Assembly: GCF_000382245.1 (NCBI RefSeq)
Contig: NZ_KB907890.1
Span: 1-43,738, forward strand
Direction of reading: 5' to 3'
DNA from: Kushneria aurantia DSM 21353
GTDB lineage: Bacteria; Pseudomonadota; Gammaproteobacteria; Pseudomonadales; Halomonadaceae
Length of the DNA stretch: 43,738 bases
Positions 37,179-43,738 of the stretch are shown here, piece after piece (the first letter of the stretch is position 1; the number at the start of each line of letters is the position of its first letter). The notes beneath the pieces were generated by a model. It was not told the DNA's origin and searched no databases. It saw nothing but the letters and a program-made list of their open reading frames with translations. The translations under genes and the position numbers were made by a program.

Positions 37179-37892
37179 TCAGCTTTCACGTACGAACAGA
37201 TATCCCCTGCTGCGTACGGTCTTGATGCGCTGCGGCTGATGGGGGTCGTCGCCGATCTTGGGACGAATGCGCGATACGCGCACGTCGATAGAGCGATCCT
37301 GACCATCGTAGCGGATGCCGCGCAGCGCCGAGAAAATTTCTTCACGGGTCAGCACGCGCCCGGCGTGAGAAGCGAGCAGCCAGAGCAGATCGAACTCGGC
37401 ACTGGTCAGGTCGATGCGTTCACCGTTGAGCCAGGCTTCGCGGGTCGAGGCTTCGATCACCAGGTCGCGAAACTCGAGCCGCGTCTCCTCCTGCTCGGAG
37501 GTTTCAGGGCCGTCGGCACGGCGCAACAGTGCCCTCATACGGGCCAACAGCACACGTGGCGGCACCGGCTTGGGTACGTAGTCGTCGGCGCCCATTTCGA
37601 GCCCCAGCACCTGATCCATATCGTCGGTGCGCGCGGTCAGCATCAGAATCGGCCCTGCATACTGCGGACGCGCTCGGCGACAGATCGACAGTCCGTCCTC
37701 ACCCGGCAGCATCAGATCGAGAATCACCAGGTCAGGGCGCAGCGACACGATACGCTCTACGCCGTTGGCGCCGTCATGCTCGACGCTGACTCTGAACCCG
37801 TTGCCTTCAAGATATTCGCGCGTCAGCGCGGCCAGCCGCTCATCATCCTCGACGATAAGAATGTGCTCGTTGGCGTTTGTAATGTTATCCAA
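37179..37892 (-). CDS. OmpR-family response regulator, RstA-like
   Basis: This 237-residue regulator has a receiver domain with acidic pair E15/D16-D17 (IVEDDE), phospho-acceptor D59 (VILDLMLPGEDG) and conserved Lys in VPKPVPPRVL, followed by a winged-helix DNA-binding domain (SAEFDLLWLLASHAGRVLTREE). The segment RGIRYDGQDRSIDVRVSRIR with KTVRSRGYLF is very RstA-like. It is the first gene of the two-component operon and is divergent from nrdA. Confidence 0.9.
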   Translation of the reverse strand: MDNITNANEHILIVEDDERLAALTREYLEGNGFRVSVEHDGANGVERIVSLRPDLVILDLMLPGEDGLSICRRARPQYAGPILMLTARTDDMDQVLGLEMGADDYVPKPVPPRVLLARMRALLRRADGPETSEQEETRLEFRDLVIEASTREAWLNGERIDLTSAEFDLLWLLASHAGRVLTREEIFSALRGIRYDGQDRSIDVRVSRIRPKIGDDPHQPQRIKTVRSRGYLFVRES

Positions 37893-38269: not shown

Positions 38270-38333
38270 TTGAGCCCCCTCGCAAGACACAATATAGTGT
38301 GCCTGCAACGCCGGCAGACACACTATATTGTGT
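38270..38333 (+). promoter_or_regulatory. nrdA promoter with paired NrdR boxes
   Basis: TTGAGC (38270-38275) and TATAGT (38293-38298) are 17 bp apart, a good sigma-70 promoter. Box 1 ACACAATATAGTGT (38287-38300) covers the -10; box 2 ACACTATATTGTGT (38320-38333) lies downstream. The two are reverse complements and 33 bp apart centre to centre, about three helical turns. This is the standard NrdR layout and predicts repression when dATP/ATP-bound NrdR occupies both sites. Confidence 0.85.
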
Positions 38334-38467: not shown

Positions 38468-41383
38468 ATGGCTACGTCCACTGACGAGCGCAGACATCAG
38501 GTCGCGCTTGATGACGGATCGCAGGATCATACGACCCATCGCCAGGTGCTGCGCATCATCAAGCGCACCGGCGATACGGTCGAATTCGACCCCGGCAAGA
38601 TTTCCGTGGCCATGAGCAAGGCCTTCCTCGCCGTGGAGGGCAGCAACGCCTCCGGCTCCTCGCGCATTCGCGAACAGGTCGAGGCGCTGACCCAGTCCAT
38701 CGTCGAGACCTTCGAGCGGCGCATGCCGGAAGGCGGCACCCTGCATATCGAGGATATTCAGGATCAGGTCGAGCTGGCGCTGATGCGCTCCGGCGAGCAC
38801 AAGGTGGCACGCGCCTATGTGCTCTATCGCGAGGAGCATGCCCGCGCTCGCGCCGCCGAGCAGCAGGGCATCGAGCGCCCCCATCCGACCATCAACGTCA
38901 CCCAGCCCGACGGCAGCCGCCGGCCGCTGGATCTGGCACGCATCGAAACGCTGGTCGGCGATGCCTGCAGCGGCCTTGCCAATGTTGATGCCAAACGCAT
39001 CGTCGAGGAGTCGTTGCGCAACCTCTACGACGGCGTCACCGCCGATGGCGTAGCCACCGCGCTGATGATGACCGCGCGCACCCTGGTCGAGAAGGAGCCC
39101 AACTACACCTTCGTCACCGCGCGCCTTCTGCAGGACAACCTGCGCCGCGAAGCGCTCTCCTTCCTCGGCCTCTGCGAGGAAGCCACCTTCGGCGACATGG
39201 CCACCCTCTACAGCCGCGCCTTCTCGACCTACGTGGCACGCGGCATCGAGTTCGAGCAGCTCGACCCGCGGCTGGCCGAATTCGATCTGGAGCGCCTCGG
39301 CGCCGCGATCGATTACGAACGCGACAATCAGTTCACCTATCTGGGCCTGCAGACCCTCTACGACCGCTACTTCCTGCATCGCGACGGCGTACGCTACGAG
39401 CTGCCGCAGGTGCTGTTCATGCGCGTAGCAATGGGTCTGGCACTCGAAGAGGACGACCGCGACGCGCGCGCCATCGAGTTCTATCAGCTGCTGGCGAGCT
39501 TCGACTACATGACCTCGACGCCGACGCTGTTCAACGCCGGCACCGTGCGCAGCCAGCTCTCCTCCTGCTACCTGACGACCGTGCCGGACAATCTCGAGGG
39601 CATCTATGGCGCCATCCGCGACAACGCCATGCTCTCCAAGTGGGCCGGCGGTCTGGGCAATGACTGGACGCCGGTACGCGCACTGGGGTCCTACATCAAG
39701 GGCACCAACGGCAAGAGCCAGGGCATCGTGCCCTTTCTCAAGGTGGTCAACGACACCGCCGTGGCGGTCAACCAGGGCGGCAAGCGCAAGGGCGCGGTCT
39801 GCTCCTATCTGGAGAGCTGGCACCTGGATATCGAGGAGTTCCTCGAGCTGCGCAAGAACACCGGTGACGATCGCCGCCGCACCCACGACATGAACACCGC
39901 CAACTGGGTGCCGGATCTGTTCATGAAGCGCGTCAGCGAAGAGAAGGAGTGGACGCTGTTCTCGCCCTCGGTATGCCCCGATCTGCACGATCTCTACGGT
40001 GCCGCCTTCGAAAAGCGCTACGAAGAGTACGAGGCGATGACCCGTACCGGCGAGATCAAGCTCTACAAGCGCGTGCCGGCGAAGGATCTGTGGCGTCGCA
40101 TGCTGTCGATGCTGTTTGAAACCGGCCACCCCTGGATCACCTTCAAGGACCCCTGCAACCTGCGCAGCCCGCAGCGTCACGCCGGGGTCGTGCACTCTTC
40201 CAACCTGTGCACCGAGATCACCCTCAACACCAGTGCCGACGAGATCGCGGTGTGCAACCTGGGGTCGATCAATCTGGCCGCGCACATCGTCGATGGCCGG
40301 CTCGACAGTGAAAAGCTCAAGCGTTCGGTCAAAACCGCCGTGCGCATGCTCGATAACGTCATCGACATCAACTATTACGCAGTGCCCCAGGCCAGGCGCG
40401 CCAATTTCCGTCACCGCCCGGTGGGTCTGGGGCTGATGGGCTTTCAGGATGCGCTCTACAAGCAGGGTATCGCCTACGCTTCACAGCAGGCGGTAGATTT
40501 CGCCGACAACTCCATGGAGCTGATCAGCTATCACGCCATCGAAGCCTCCAGTGACCTCGCCGCCGAGCGTGGCCGCTACGAATCCTTCGAGGGCTCGCTG
40601 TGGAGCCAGGGCGTGTTGCCGATCGACTCGGTGAACGAGCTGGCCCGCGAGCGCGGCGAGCAGTATCTGCAGATGGACACTTCCGCCACCCAGGATTGGC
40701 AGCGCATCCGCGACAAGGTGCGCCGTCAGGGGATGCGCAACTCCAACGTGATGGCGATCGCGCCGACCGCGACAATCTCCAACATCTGCGGCGTGACCCA
40801 GTCGATCGAGCCGACCTATCAGAATCTCTATGTGAAGTCGAACCTCTCCGGCGAGTTCACCGTGGTCAACTCCCATATGGTGCACGCCCTCAAGGAGCGT
40901 GACCTGTGGGACGAGGTGATGATCAACGATCTGAAGTATTACGACGGCTCGCTACAGCCTATCGAGCGTATCCCGGAGGATCTGCGCGAGCGCTACGCTA
41001 CCGCTTTCGAAATCGAGCCGCGCTGGATCGTCGAGGCCGCTTCGCGTCGTCAGAAGTGGCTCGACCAGGCGCAGTCGCTGAATCTTTATATCAGTGGCGT
41101 CTCCGGTCGCAAGCTGGACAACACCTACCGTATGGCATGGCAGCTGGGGCTCAAGACCACCTATTACCTGCGTGCCCAGGCCTCGACACGGCTGGAGAAA
41201 TCCACCCTGAAAGGCACCGATGGCAAGCTGACAGGCGTCAAGCCGGCCGCCGCACCTGGTGCTGCAACCGGCGACAGCCGTCCGTCCAGCGCCGCTCCGG
41301 CGGCCGATCCGCAGCAGCCGATGGGCTCGGCACCGCCCCTGGCCTGCTCGCTGGACGATCCGGACTGCGAGGCGTGTCAGTAA
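38468..41383 (+). CDS. nrdA: Class I ribonucleoside-diphosphate reductase, large subunit
   Basis: This 971-residue protein reduces ribonucleoside diphosphates to deoxy forms. Two ATP-cone regulatory domains occur in tandem at the N-terminus (about residues 26-130 and 140-240), as in Pseudomonas NrdA. Catalytic residues are N579, C581 and E583 (NLCTE), with the disulfide pair C367 (SSCYL) and C596 (VCNLGS). The C-terminal redox pair is C967/C970 (DCEACQ). ATG 38468 has GGAAGG upstream; an in-frame ATG at 38438 lacks one. nrdB follows 104 bp later. Confidence 0.95.
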   Translation: MATSTDERRHQVALDDGSQDHTTHRQVLRIIKRTGDTVEFDPGKISVAMSKAFLAVEGSNASGSSRIREQVEALTQSIVETFERRMPEGGTLHIEDIQDQVELALMRSGEHKVARAYVLYREEHARARAAEQQGIERPHPTINVTQPDGSRRPLDLARIETLVGDACSGLANVDAKRIVEESLRNLYDGVTADGVATALMMTARTLVEKEPNYTFVTARLLQDNLRREALSFLGLCEEATFGDMATLYSRAFSTYVARGIEFEQLDPRLAEFDLERLGAAIDYERDNQFTYLGLQTLYDRYFLHRDGVRYELPQVLFMRVAMGLALEEDDRDARAIEFYQLLASFDYMTSTPTLFNAGTVRSQLSSCYLTTVPDNLEGIYGAIRDNAMLSKWAGGLGNDWTPVRALGSYIKGTNGKSQGIVPFLKVVNDTAVAVNQGGKRKGAVCSYLESWHLDIEEFLELRKNTGDDRRRTHDMNTANWVPDLFMKRVSEEKEWTLFSPSVCPDLHDLYGAAFEKRYEEYEAMTRTGEIKLYKRVPAKDLWRRMLSMLFETGHPWITFKDPCNLRSPQRHAGVVHSSNLCTEITLNTSADEIAVCNLGSINLAAHIVDGRLDSEKLKRSVKTAVRMLDNVIDINYYAVPQARRANFRHRPVGLGLMGFQDALYKQGIAYASQQAVDFADNSMELISYHAIEASSDLAAERGRYESFEGSLWSQGVLPIDSVNELARERGEQYLQMDTSATQDWQRIRDKVRRQGMRNSNVMAIAPTATISNICGVTQSIEPTYQNLYVKSNLSGEFTVVNSHMVHALKERDLWDEVMINDLKYYDGSLQPIERIPEDLRERYATAFEIEPRWIVEAASRRQKWLDQAQSLNLYISGVSGRKLDNTYRMAWQLGLKTTYYLRAQASTRLEKSTLKGTDGKLTGVKPAAAPGAATGDSRPSSAAPAADPQQPMGSAPPLACSLDDPDCEACQ

Positions 41384-41437
41384 CGTACATTTGCACCACC
41401 GAGGCAGCGACCGCCGTGTCGCTGCTGACGAATATAA

Positions 41438-41469
41438 AGGCCGCTCCGCGTCGGTGACGTCGGAGCGGC
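41438..41469 (+). promoter_or_regulatory. Hairpin between nrdA and nrdB
   Basis: Perfect 10-bp stem ggccgctccg/cggagcggcc with a 12-nt loop ends 18 bp before the nrdB ATG, just upstream of its GCAGGAGG ribosome site. It could stabilise one mRNA part or reduce read-through. No T-run follows, so it is not a classic terminator. Confidence 0.5.
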
Positions 41470-41487
41470 CCGCAGGAGGCCAACAAC

Positions 41488-42600
41488 ATGCAGGAATCCA
41501 CACTCTTTGATGCCGAAGACGGCAATGGGCAGGTCGACAACAGCGGTCTGGGCGAAATCGACGTAGGTGCGGCACGTATCGATGCCAGCGAAAAGTCGAT
41601 GATCAATGCCCGTTCCGACGTCAATCAGTTGCTGCCACTGAAATACGGCTGGGCCTGGGAGAAGTACCTCTCCGGCTGCAATAACCACTGGATGCCCACC
41701 GAAGTCTCGATGCAGGGCGATATCGCCACCTGGCGCGCACCGGTCAACAGCCCGGAAGGATTGACCGAGGACGAAGTGCGCATGCTAAAGCGCAATCTCG
41801 GTTTCTTCGCGACCGCCGAGTCGCTGGTGGCCAACAACATCGTACTGGCGGTCTATCGTCATCTGACCAACCCCGAGTGCCGTCAGTATCTGTTGCGCCA
41901 GGCCTTCGAGGAAGCGATCCATACTCACACCTTCCAGTACATCTGCACCTCGCTGGGCCTCGATGAGGGCGAGCTGTTCAACATGTACCGCGAGGTGCCG
42001 TCGATTACCGACAAGGACGCCTGGGCACTCAAGCACACCCAGAACCTCGAAGATCCGGATTTTCGCACCGGTTCACCGGAGCGCGATCAGGCCTTTCTAC
42101 GCGACATGGTGGCCTTCTATGTCATCTTCGAAGGCATGTGGTTCTATACCGGCTTCGCCCAGATTCTGGCGCTGGGTCGGCGTAACAAGATGGTCGGTAT
42201 TGCCGAGCAGTATCAGTACATTCTGCGCGACGAATCGATCCACATGAACTTCGGTATCGACTGCATCAACCAGATCAAGATCGAAAACCCACACCTGTGG
42301 ACCGAAGACTTTCAGGAAGAGATCCGTGGCATGCTGCGCGAGGCGTGCGAGCTGGAGGTTGCCTACGGCAAGGAGACCATGCCCCGCGGTATCCTTGGCC
42401 TGAACGCCGAGCTCTGCGAGCAGTACATGCACTTCATTACCAACCGTCGCGCCGAGCAGATCGGTCTCGCTCGCCTCTTCCCCGAGGTGGATAACCCCTT
42501 CCCGTGGATGTCGGAGGTGATCGATCTGCCCAAGGAAAAGAACTTTTTCGAGACCCGTGTCACCGAATATCAGACCGGCGGCGCATTGAGCTGGGACTGA
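41488..42600 (+). CDS. nrdB: Ribonucleotide reductase small subunit, class Ic-type (Phe at radical site)
   Basis: This 370-residue R2 protein carries the metal site that starts catalysis in NrdA. Metal ligands are E111 (ATAESLV), E142 and H145 (EEAIHTHTF), E215 (IFEGMWFY), E249 and H252 (RDESIHMNF). The position of the radical Tyr is F149, and the first ligand is Glu, not Asp. From memory these match Chlamydia trachomatis R2 (E89, E120, H123, F127, E193, E227, H230) with a constant offset of 22. That suggests a Mn/Fe cofactor without tyrosyl radical. The C-terminus [15 protein letters not shown] is also Chlamydia-like. Confidence 0.93.
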
Positions 42601-42777: not shown

Positions 42778-43191
42778 TTACTGCTGCTGATTATCGTCGC
42801 TCATCTCACTGCCCGCTTCCTGCATGGCGTCACCGGTCGCATCGGTAGCATCGTCGGCAGCATTACTGGCGGCATCGCCTGCGTTATCAAGTGCTTCGCC
42901 CGTCTCATCAACGGCATTGGAAGCAGCGTCGCTGGTAGCATCAGCCGCATTGGAGGCAGCGTCGCCAGTGGCATCGGCGGCATTGGACACAGCATCACCA
43001 GTGGCATCAGCAGCGTTGGAAGCGGCATCACCGGTGGCATCAGCAGCGTTGCTGGCGGCATCGCCGGCCTGGTCCGCAGCCTGACTCATCTCTTCGCTGG
43101 CATCATTGGCACCATCATCATTGCCGCAACCAACGAGTGCAAAGCCCATACCCATCATGGCAACCAACAGTAGACTCGATGTCCTTTTCAT
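42778..43191 (-). CDS. Small lipoprotein with 11-residue repeats
   Basis: This 137-residue protein starts with a signal peptide (MKRTSSLLLVAMMGMGFAL) and a lipobox ALVGC, with C22 as the lipidated residue. The mature part is very acidic, rich in Ala, Asp and Asn. Residues 43-97 are five tandem 11-mers close to GDAASNAADAT, with looser versions after. Such 11-mers can form amphipathic helices like those of LEA group 3 proteins, but that link is inference. GAGGG lies before ATG 43191. It would sit in the inner or outer membrane facing the periplasm; G23-N24 after the Cys does not give the classic inner-membrane Asp. Confidence 0.82.
   Translation of the reverse strand: MKRTSSLLLVAMMGMGFALVGCGNDDGANDASEEMSQAADQAGDAASNAADATGDAASNAADATGDAVSNAADATGDAASNAADATSDAASNAVDETGEALDNAGDAASNAADDATDATGDAMQEAGSEMSDDNQQQ
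42901..43065 (-). repeat. Five tandem 33-bp repeats within the lipoprotein gene
   Basis: The DNA encoding residues 43-97 is five imperfect 33-bp units, recognisable on the plus strand by repeated ggcatcagcagcgttgga-type words. Copy number could vary between strains by slippage. Confidence 0.8.
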
Positions 43192-43638
43192 TTTGCCCTC
43201 CCCCTTGCCTGGTGATAAGTCGAATAATTCACAACCAATGACGGAAATAATCCTTTTCAACGGTTAATATAATTGTGGTTCAGGCATGCAGAAAGCGCCA
43301 GCATCAGAGAAGAGTTCAAACTGTCATACAACTGAAAAGCGAGGGACTCCGGACAGAAGCGTTGACGACGTAGATGCCTGATTTGCAGCTCTTTGTGGTC
43401 GGGGTCCGGAAAAGCAAAACCCCGACCATGGGCCTGGGTTTCAAAAGGGTGCCTGACGATGACCCGGGCGGCGTTCCGCTACTGTTACTCGTCCCGTCCC
43501 GGGACTCGCCCTGCGGGCCCGCTGAAGCGGTTCCCGTCTGTTCCCGACAGACGGGTCATGGGGAGACCCCTGAAAAGCCCATGGGGAGGACCGGAAAAGC
43601 AAAACCCCGACCATGTTGTAATCGGGGTTTCAAAAGGG
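43192..43638. other. 447-bp region between the lipoprotein gene and 5S rRNA, with duplicated rrn-end pieces
   Basis: No protein gene is supported. 43406-43430 and 43591-43615 are an identical 25-bp block. 43436-43464 and 43625-43653 are an identical 29-bp block that includes the 5S 3' end. The 14-bp catggggagacccc at 43557-43570 matches 5S at 43662-43675. Between them is a hairpin, cccgtctgt-tcccg-acagacggg (43533-43555). This looks like remains of an extra 5S gene plus terminator. Confidence 0.65.
43596..43630 (-). terminator. Terminator of the rRNA operon
   Basis: Perfect 9-bp stem aaaccccga/tcggggttt (43602-43610 with 43622-43630), read on the minus strand and followed by ttttgctttt. It starts 9 bp after the 5S 3' end. 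Confidence 0.85.
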
Positions 43639-43738
43639 TGCCTGACGATGACCTACTCTCGCATGGGGAGACCCCACACTACCATCGGCGCTGAGCGGTT
43701 TCACTGCCGAGTTCGGGATGGGATCGGGTGGGACCCGC
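43639..43738 (-). rRNA. rrf: 5S ribosomal RNA, 3' portion (5' end outside the window)
   Basis: On the minus strand the sequence has the 5S core words ATCCCATCCCGAACTCGGCA, GTGAAACCGCTCAGCGCCGA and TGGTAGTGTGGGGTCTCCCC, ending GAGAGTAGGTCATCGTCAGGCA. About 100 nt are present; roughly the first 15-20 nt lie beyond the right edge. The 23S and 16S genes would be to the right. The exact 3' end at 43639 is set by pairing expected with the missing 5' TGCCTG. Confidence 0.95.

Follow-up and report, generated by a model that had tools for sequence, protein, structure and literature searches.

How did a small ribonucleotide reductase (RNR) subunit with the active-site residues of class Ic come to lie beside a NrdA with two ATP-cones in the gammaproteobacterium Kushneria aurantia, and did the two subunits arrive there together? 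The DNA analysed here (the window) is a stretch of 43,738 nt from strain DSM 21353 (GCF_000382245.1, NZ_KB907890.1, positions 1-43,738, forward strand). Its nrdB gene (41488..42600, plus strand, ATG start, 370 aa) was delimited from the list of open reading frames, Pfam, NCBIfam and alignment, and its product is an RNR small subunit, or R2 (Pfam PF00268, 295.9 bits; NCBIfam NF005550, 650.2 bits). Directly upstream lies a class I nrdA (38468..41383, plus strand), the neighbour looked for in a class Ic locus, which encodes a catalytic subunit of 971 aa. Both of its ATP-cone stretches were detected in a domain search, as the original prediction had it.

Active-site residues and distribution of the small subunit

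The position of the radical tyrosine is occupied by Phe149 (codon TTC, 41932..41934, plus strand) and that of the first metal ligand by Glu111 (codon GAG, 41818..41820, plus strand), where the Tyr-type relatives that were read have Asp. In a pairwise alignment with the R2 of Chlamydia trachomatis (1syy), the Chlamydia residues E89, E120, H123, F127, E193, E227 and H230 correspond to E111, E142, H145, F149, E215, E249 and H252, all seven at the constant offset of 22 that had been predicted. The same offset relates Y129, Y222 and D226 of Chlamydia to Y151, Y244 and D248, while W51 corresponds to W68 (offset 17) and Y338 to Y361 (offset 23). The remaining carboxylate and histidine ligands (E142, H145, E215, E249 and H252) and the relay residues (W68, Y244, D248 and Y361) are intact, and we take residues of the W68/Y244/Y361 type to form the radical relay. 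A misplaced radical tyrosine can be dismissed, as none occurs at the radical position and the closest one, Y151, aligns with Y129 of Chlamydia.

The seven key positions read EEHFEEH in all 80 loci that gave the best 80 matches in genome_contigs and in each of the 12 genomes of the family that carry an R2 86-100% identical to that of K. aurantia (L112-L123). They read DEHYEEH in the 30 best-scoring gammaproteobacterial NF005550 loci (30/30, from 144 genomes above the cut-off) and in all 18 Tyr-type loci fetched from the family search. An assembly or strain error, or a one-off substitution, was rejected because the same residues recur in separate assemblies from three genera, 12 genomes of the family in all.

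According to the scheme given in PMC8463856, Tyr/Asp marks classes Ia and Ib, Phe/Glu class Ic and Tyr/Glu class Id. By its residues, the K. aurantia R2 is well supported as a class Ic protein, with the Phe/Glu pairing and all ligands conserved. Class Id, with its Mn2(III/IV) centre, is described in the same source as sharing the metal oxidant and the Glu first ligand, but it keeps the Tyr for which K. aurantia has Phe149, and was rejected. R2lox proteins, in which the account in PMC3824934 has the C-terminal relay Tyr absent and no interaction with R1 expected, were likewise rejected, because Y361 is present and nrdA adjoins nrdB.

The original prediction's class Ic reading also holds up in comparisons over the whole protein. 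Among the best 80 matches in genome_contigs, the top six come from Larsenimonas and Kushneria and the other 74 from Actinobacteria at 79-84% identity, against 66-68% for the Tyr-type R2s of the family itself. These actinobacterial Phe-type R2s, from Amycolatopsis, Nocardiopsis, Saccharopolyspora and Kineococcus among others, align over nearly the whole protein and have the same key residues. The closest R2 of solved structure is 6y2n (E=1.2e-202), from Saccharopolyspora erythraea (PMC7467353). The Mn(IV)/Fe(III) R2c of C. trachomatis is alike in ligands, Phe, Glu and relay residues at 57% identity (191/337), but the NrdA of that organism is reported to have three ATP-cones (PMC9669993), whereas that of K. 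aurantia has two and differs in descent from its NrdB.

Phe-type R2s at 86-100% identity were found in 12 of the 275 Halomonadaceae genomes, namely in 8 of 10 from Kushneria, 3 of 3 from Larsenimonas (g230) and the single genome of a third genus (g237). Many other family genomes carry Tyr-type R2s at 65-69% identity (18 and 20 loci, all reading DEHYEEH, with some genomes in both sets), still more have only far more distant R2s, including nearly all of genus g243 and 18/18 of g240, and the R2 search of the 275 genomes gave no match in six. The motif EEAxHTHTF occurs in at least 6 of 321 genomes at class level, 4 of these outside Kushneria, and in at least 9 of 398 at phylum level, 6 of them outside both the genus and the class; these counts are lower bounds, since variants such as HTHAF escape the pattern. 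In a sample of 296 actinobacterial genomes, two have an R2 at 82% identity or more (one being the search centre), and six R2s at 57-58% also read EEHFEEH.

Some loci stand apart from this pattern. In two Kushneria genomes, G396 and G398, the class Ic R2 is missing and the search gave a distant R2 match only. In G396 (L190) a Tyr/Asp R2 lies beside a NrdA of about 797 aa, in which no ATP-cone was detected, and an RNR-associated flavodoxin (TIGR01754); the type of RNR has turned over within one genus. L191 (G391), listed with L190, is also of another RNR type. The Tyr-type nrdB of one family member (L200, G297:C1:1861106-1862148) gave two overlapping matches, apparently through a frame change. 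R2s at 76-79% identity occur on large plasmid records from Phyllobacterium, Methylocella and Aureimonas (H1-H7), a possible route of spread, and a 45-kb IMG/VR contig (L241) carries one at 80%.

Ancestry of the two subunits

We compared the two subunits in trees of the same 68 rows, made up of 11 Phe-type Halomonadaceae, 20 actinobacterial, 6 other-class, 20 Tyr-type Halomonadaceae and 11 other Tyr-type rows of the class. The actinobacterial rows were chosen by hand from 74 listed loci, all with a NrdA longer than 700 aa, and both Tyr-type sets were also hand-chosen; the other-class rows are all six Phe-type loci that the phylum search gave outside the class and are probably alphaproteobacterial. 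In the Phe-type Halomonadaceae set, L193 and L199 are the same contigs as L002 and L004; the set excludes L198 and the short loci L112-L123. L188 (partial NrdA), L190-L191 (other RNR type) and L200 (interrupted nrdB) were left out.

In the careful NrdB tree, the 11 Phe-type Halomonadaceae rows nest within the actinobacterial class Ic rows (95/89 and 96/91), and this nesting persists (95/95 and 96/83) when further Phe-type rows are added (L208-L212, L213, L214, L217 and L218, without L215 and L216). In the NrdB trees the program flagged long branches that meet, outside the Kushneria group. The AU test rejects a grouping of NrdB with the Tyr-type Halomonadaceae (p=1.3e-9), and at diagnostic sites NrdB has 37 foreign against 3 native residues. 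Vertical descent of a native NrdB that was point-mutated from Tyr/Asp to Phe/Glu, a signature needing only two residue changes, is hardly credible given these sites, a gain of 316 lnL units for the foreign side over residues 1-335 and the AU test, since it is the whole body of NrdB that is actinobacterial-like.

NrdA tells a different history. It shares 74-78% identity with the NrdAs of 20 Tyr-type Halomonadaceae loci and only 60-65%, over near-full length, with those of Phe-type loci from Actinobacteria and the other class (up to 69% in partial alignment). In a quick tree of the same 68 rows the Phe-type rows nest within the Tyr-type Halomonadaceae, and in a careful tree of residues 1-885 alone they fall within the family at 100/98. 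Diagnostic sites number 38 native against 7 foreign; five of the seven lie at 914-918 and 965, and two are in columns gapped in Tyr-type Halomonadaceae. By contrast, the NrdA and NrdB of the actinobacterial Phe-type rows sampled group together in both trees. Had nrdA and nrdB been transferred as a unit from a class Ic operon, actinobacterial or of another class, both K. aurantia subunits would have the same neighbours, as in an NrdABz operon of single descent, and they do not. Such transfer may happen elsewhere, since both subunits of the six other-class loci group with actinobacterial rows, and similar R2s (76-79%) lie on the plasmid records named above. For K. aurantia we regard it as very improbable, because the identities of NrdA favour its own family, its trees reject the transfer and the AU test (quick kind) excludes NrdA from the Actinobacteria (p=9.5e-44) and from the Actinobacteria with the other-class Phe-type rows (p=5.3e-7).

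The chromosomal neighbourhood is in keeping with the trees. A response-regulator gene divergent from nrdA (37179..37892, minus strand), recognized by locus comparison, is present beside nrdA in all 13 Phe-type loci examined and in all 20 Tyr-type Halomonadaceae loci examined, several of which are truncated at the locus end, so the place of the Phe-type nrdAB is the native one. The class Ia NrdABz of Halomonadaceae and Pseudomonas likewise has a two-cone NrdA but a Tyr/Asp R2, and in the Halomonadaceae the NrdA body is shared with K. aurantia as well as the neighbour (two ATP-cones in the one Tyr-type family row scanned, L153). Across the loci scanned, two ATP-cone stretches were found in L153, L195, L182, L209 and the actinobacterial L011, one in L008, L009, L173 and L175, and none in L018, whose extracted NrdA is cut short; these counts do not separate the groups cleanly. 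On the 3' side of nrdB, the open reading frames of the window include no marker common to Tyr-type loci. One of them (42778-43260, minus strand) is a small lipoprotein-like frame built of degenerate DATGDAASNAA repeats, and the end of the window (43630-43738), about 1 kb past nrdB, looks by eye like 5S rRNA, a stretch also seen downstream of nrdB in seven loci of the genus (two being the same contig).

Taken together, the trees, AU tests and diagnostic sites establish the operon, at the level of sequence, as a mosaic of a native NrdA and an actinobacterial-like NrdB of different ancestry. The exact donor of the Phe-type nrdB was presumably of actinobacterial type but is uncertain, because close R2s are sporadic in Actinobacteria, the comparison covers the best 80 matches, and the actinobacterial rows nearest the Kushneria group have fairly long branches. 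Composition carries no useful signal of transfer (GC3 of 0.776 for nrdB and 0.842 for nrdA); with no sign in GC3 of a recent high-GC import, any import would be old.

Cofactor and control of the enzyme

The host genome is 99.98% complete and has a single R2 (one PF00268 match). NrdD (class III) was not found in it and, for class II, nothing scored above the NrdJ cut-off, the sole match to that model being the nrdA-encoded NrdA itself. The Phe-type enzyme is therefore the only RNR found in K. aurantia, and as such it should be active; activity of the hybrid NrdA-NrdB pair would follow the same expectation.

Its cofactor is probably Mn(IV)/Fe(III), as judged from the residues. It is unlikely that an R2 of class Ic by residues would instead hold another metal pair in vivo (Fe/Fe or Mn/Mn) or form a poor enzyme. 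Metallation cannot be read from sequence, and a propensity of class Ic proteins for mismetallation is described in PMC8463856, but Phe/Glu is the class Ic signature, and a poor enzyme is hard to reconcile with its being the only RNR found in the genome. The expectation that the enzyme resists radical scavengers calls for more caution than the original prediction gave it, since hydroxyurea-mediated reduction of the class Ic cofactor is described in that source.

The operon was also predicted to be under NrdR control. A motif scan placed two NrdR-like boxes before nrdA (38287..38302 and 38318..38333, both plus strand), separated by 15 bp; it gave three matches, two of them overlapping, against 0.07 expected. 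NrdR proteins are reported to bind box pairs with spacers of 14-17 or 24-27 bp (PMC12051234), and the host genome has one nrdR gene. The box pair, its suitable spacer and this gene together agree with the prediction that nrdAB is an NrdR-controlled operon.

The arrangement as a whole had been called unlike the usual textbook one, which is only partly right. As far as the account in PMC9669993 goes, the NrdAz clade has mixed Tyr and non-Tyr partners, many of them class Ic-like, and multiple ATP-cones (two in P. aeruginosa, three in C. trachomatis), so that class Ic beside a multi-cone NrdA is known. Class Ic outside Chlamydia is known from archaea, and horizontal transfer of RNR operons, Phe variants included, is described (PMC3019208). 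What is new is the joining of a native NrdA to a foreign R2. A list of class Ic sequences was reportedly given by Högbom in 2010.

Probable joins inside nrdA and nrdB

We scanned for joins by grafting the Kushneria group beside either the Tyr-type Halomonadaceae or an actinobacterial row (L008), with one graft point per side, and comparing lnL column by column. The site-wise difference (negative values favouring the native side) is -432 for NrdA 1-885, +43 for NrdA 904-971, +316 for NrdB 1-335 and -9.5 for NrdB 336-370. The best cuts are at NrdA 903 (889-891 also lying within 2 lnL) and NrdB 335 (334-344). In the internal controls, the 818 windows spanning 68 columns within NrdA 1-885 all score -9.95 or lower, and the 301 spanning 35 columns within NrdB 1-335 all score +3.83 or higher.

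Just past the 5' join, all 11 Phe-type Halomonadaceae rows have the linker STLKGTDGKL; its GTDG is present in 26/26 actinobacterial and other-class Phe-type rows and in 0/31 Tyr-type rows. NrdA is of Halomonadaceae descent from residue 1 to about 903, and a join inside nrdA is strongly indicated. The putative imported tract (approximately 41177..42493, plus strand) would consist of the last ~68 codons of nrdA, encoding the linker and the Cys tail, an intergenic part that is probably also of actinobacterial type, and nrdB codons 1 to about 335. The C-terminal ~35 codons of nrdB (42494..42597, plus strand), which encode what we take to be the docking tail, look Halomonadaceae- or gammaproteobacteria-like again, and both diagnostic sites in the tail favour the native side. 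Both joins fall at places where some pairs of Tyr-type Halomonadaceae and actinobacterial sequences have identical DNA runs of at least 17 nt, namely NrdA 894-902 (up to 31% of pairs), NrdB 335-344 (up to 20%) and NrdB 348-359 (up to 85%), although other stretches of both genes are better conserved (the junction windows rank 348 of 957 in NrdA and 147 of 356 in NrdB).

A second join inside nrdB, with a native-like tail beyond it, is weakly indicated, because about 9.5 lnL units and two tail sites speak for it and selection on a docking tail would look alike. The same mosaic might thus carry a tail that never recombined, the import having reached or passed the end of nrdB and the tail having converged on the gammaproteobacterial form for docking. 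This possibility deserves consideration, as the tail is short, its presumed docking role invites selection and several actinobacterial rows have Thr359, one of the two diagnostic residues. Nevertheless, we consider it doubtful, given that the site-wise lnL drops below zero at the conserved NPFPWMSE (residues 336-343) and that NrdB 335-344 and 348-359 contain the exact DNA runs shared between the two groups.

The history that we favour, and hold to be probable, is that a class Ic-type R2 took over from the native class Ia R2 at the same locus, through a tract of ~1.3 kb from an actinobacterial-type operon, while the native NrdA was kept. The replacement may date from an ancestor shared by Kushneria, Larsenimonas and a third Halomonadaceae genus, and have proceeded by homologous recombination at conserved stretches, from about nrdA codon 903 to about nrdB codon 335. 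The native locus, the catalytic barrel and ATP-cones of NrdA and, probably, the docking tail of the native NrdB would have stayed in place. The R2 body would now hold an oxidised Mn(IV)/Fe(III) centre instead of a tyrosyl radical, and the oxidising equivalent would pass to the NrdA cysteine through the W68/Y244/Y361-type relay, following the class Ic mechanism as given in PMC8463856. In the weakest step, a native-like NrdB tail might help the foreign R2 body to dock on the native NrdA. With more hesitation, we lean towards a single gene-conversion tract of ~1.3 kb having switched the sole RNR of this halophile lineage from tyrosyl radical to metal oxidant in one step, importing the NrdA Cys tail and sparing the native docking tail, and towards subunit swapping having perhaps happened more than once.

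Four loci from gammaproteobacteria outside the family (L208-L211; G047, G158, G269 and G146) also have a Phe-type R2. The NrdA of L208-L210 groups with gammaproteobacteria in the tree (the NrdA trees did not include L211, whose NrdA is partial). In such loci NrdB is clearly Phe-type over residues 1-335 (+118 and +41 lnL), and NrdA 1-885 falls weakly on the native side (-8.7 and -4.8). The NrdA tail of L208, which sits on a very long branch, leans native (-5.7), and the best cuts differ from those of Kushneria. These results hint at further subunit swaps in L208-L210.

A search of titles and abstract openings found no class Ic RNR or subunit swap for Kushneria or Halomonadaceae, though one may exist in print, nor any case in which a native NrdA is joined to a class Ic R2 through breaks inside the genes. 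Class Ic itself, multi-cone NrdAz with class Ic partners and transfer of RNR operons are known; the mosaic operon with joins that appear to lie inside genes is new. RNR is essential and its radical passes a long distance across the subunit interface, so NrdA and NrdB are expected to co-evolve. If our reading is true, a hybrid of native NrdA and foreign class Ic R2 became fixed as the only RNR found, which would show that the radical-generating part can be exchanged as a module and that the cofactor can switch from Fe-tyrosyl to Mn/Fe in one step. With Tyr-type and Phe-type relatives in one family and NrdAs 74-78% identical, the Halomonadaceae offer a natural experiment in which the limits of cross-compatibility may be addressed by exchanging subunits or tails.
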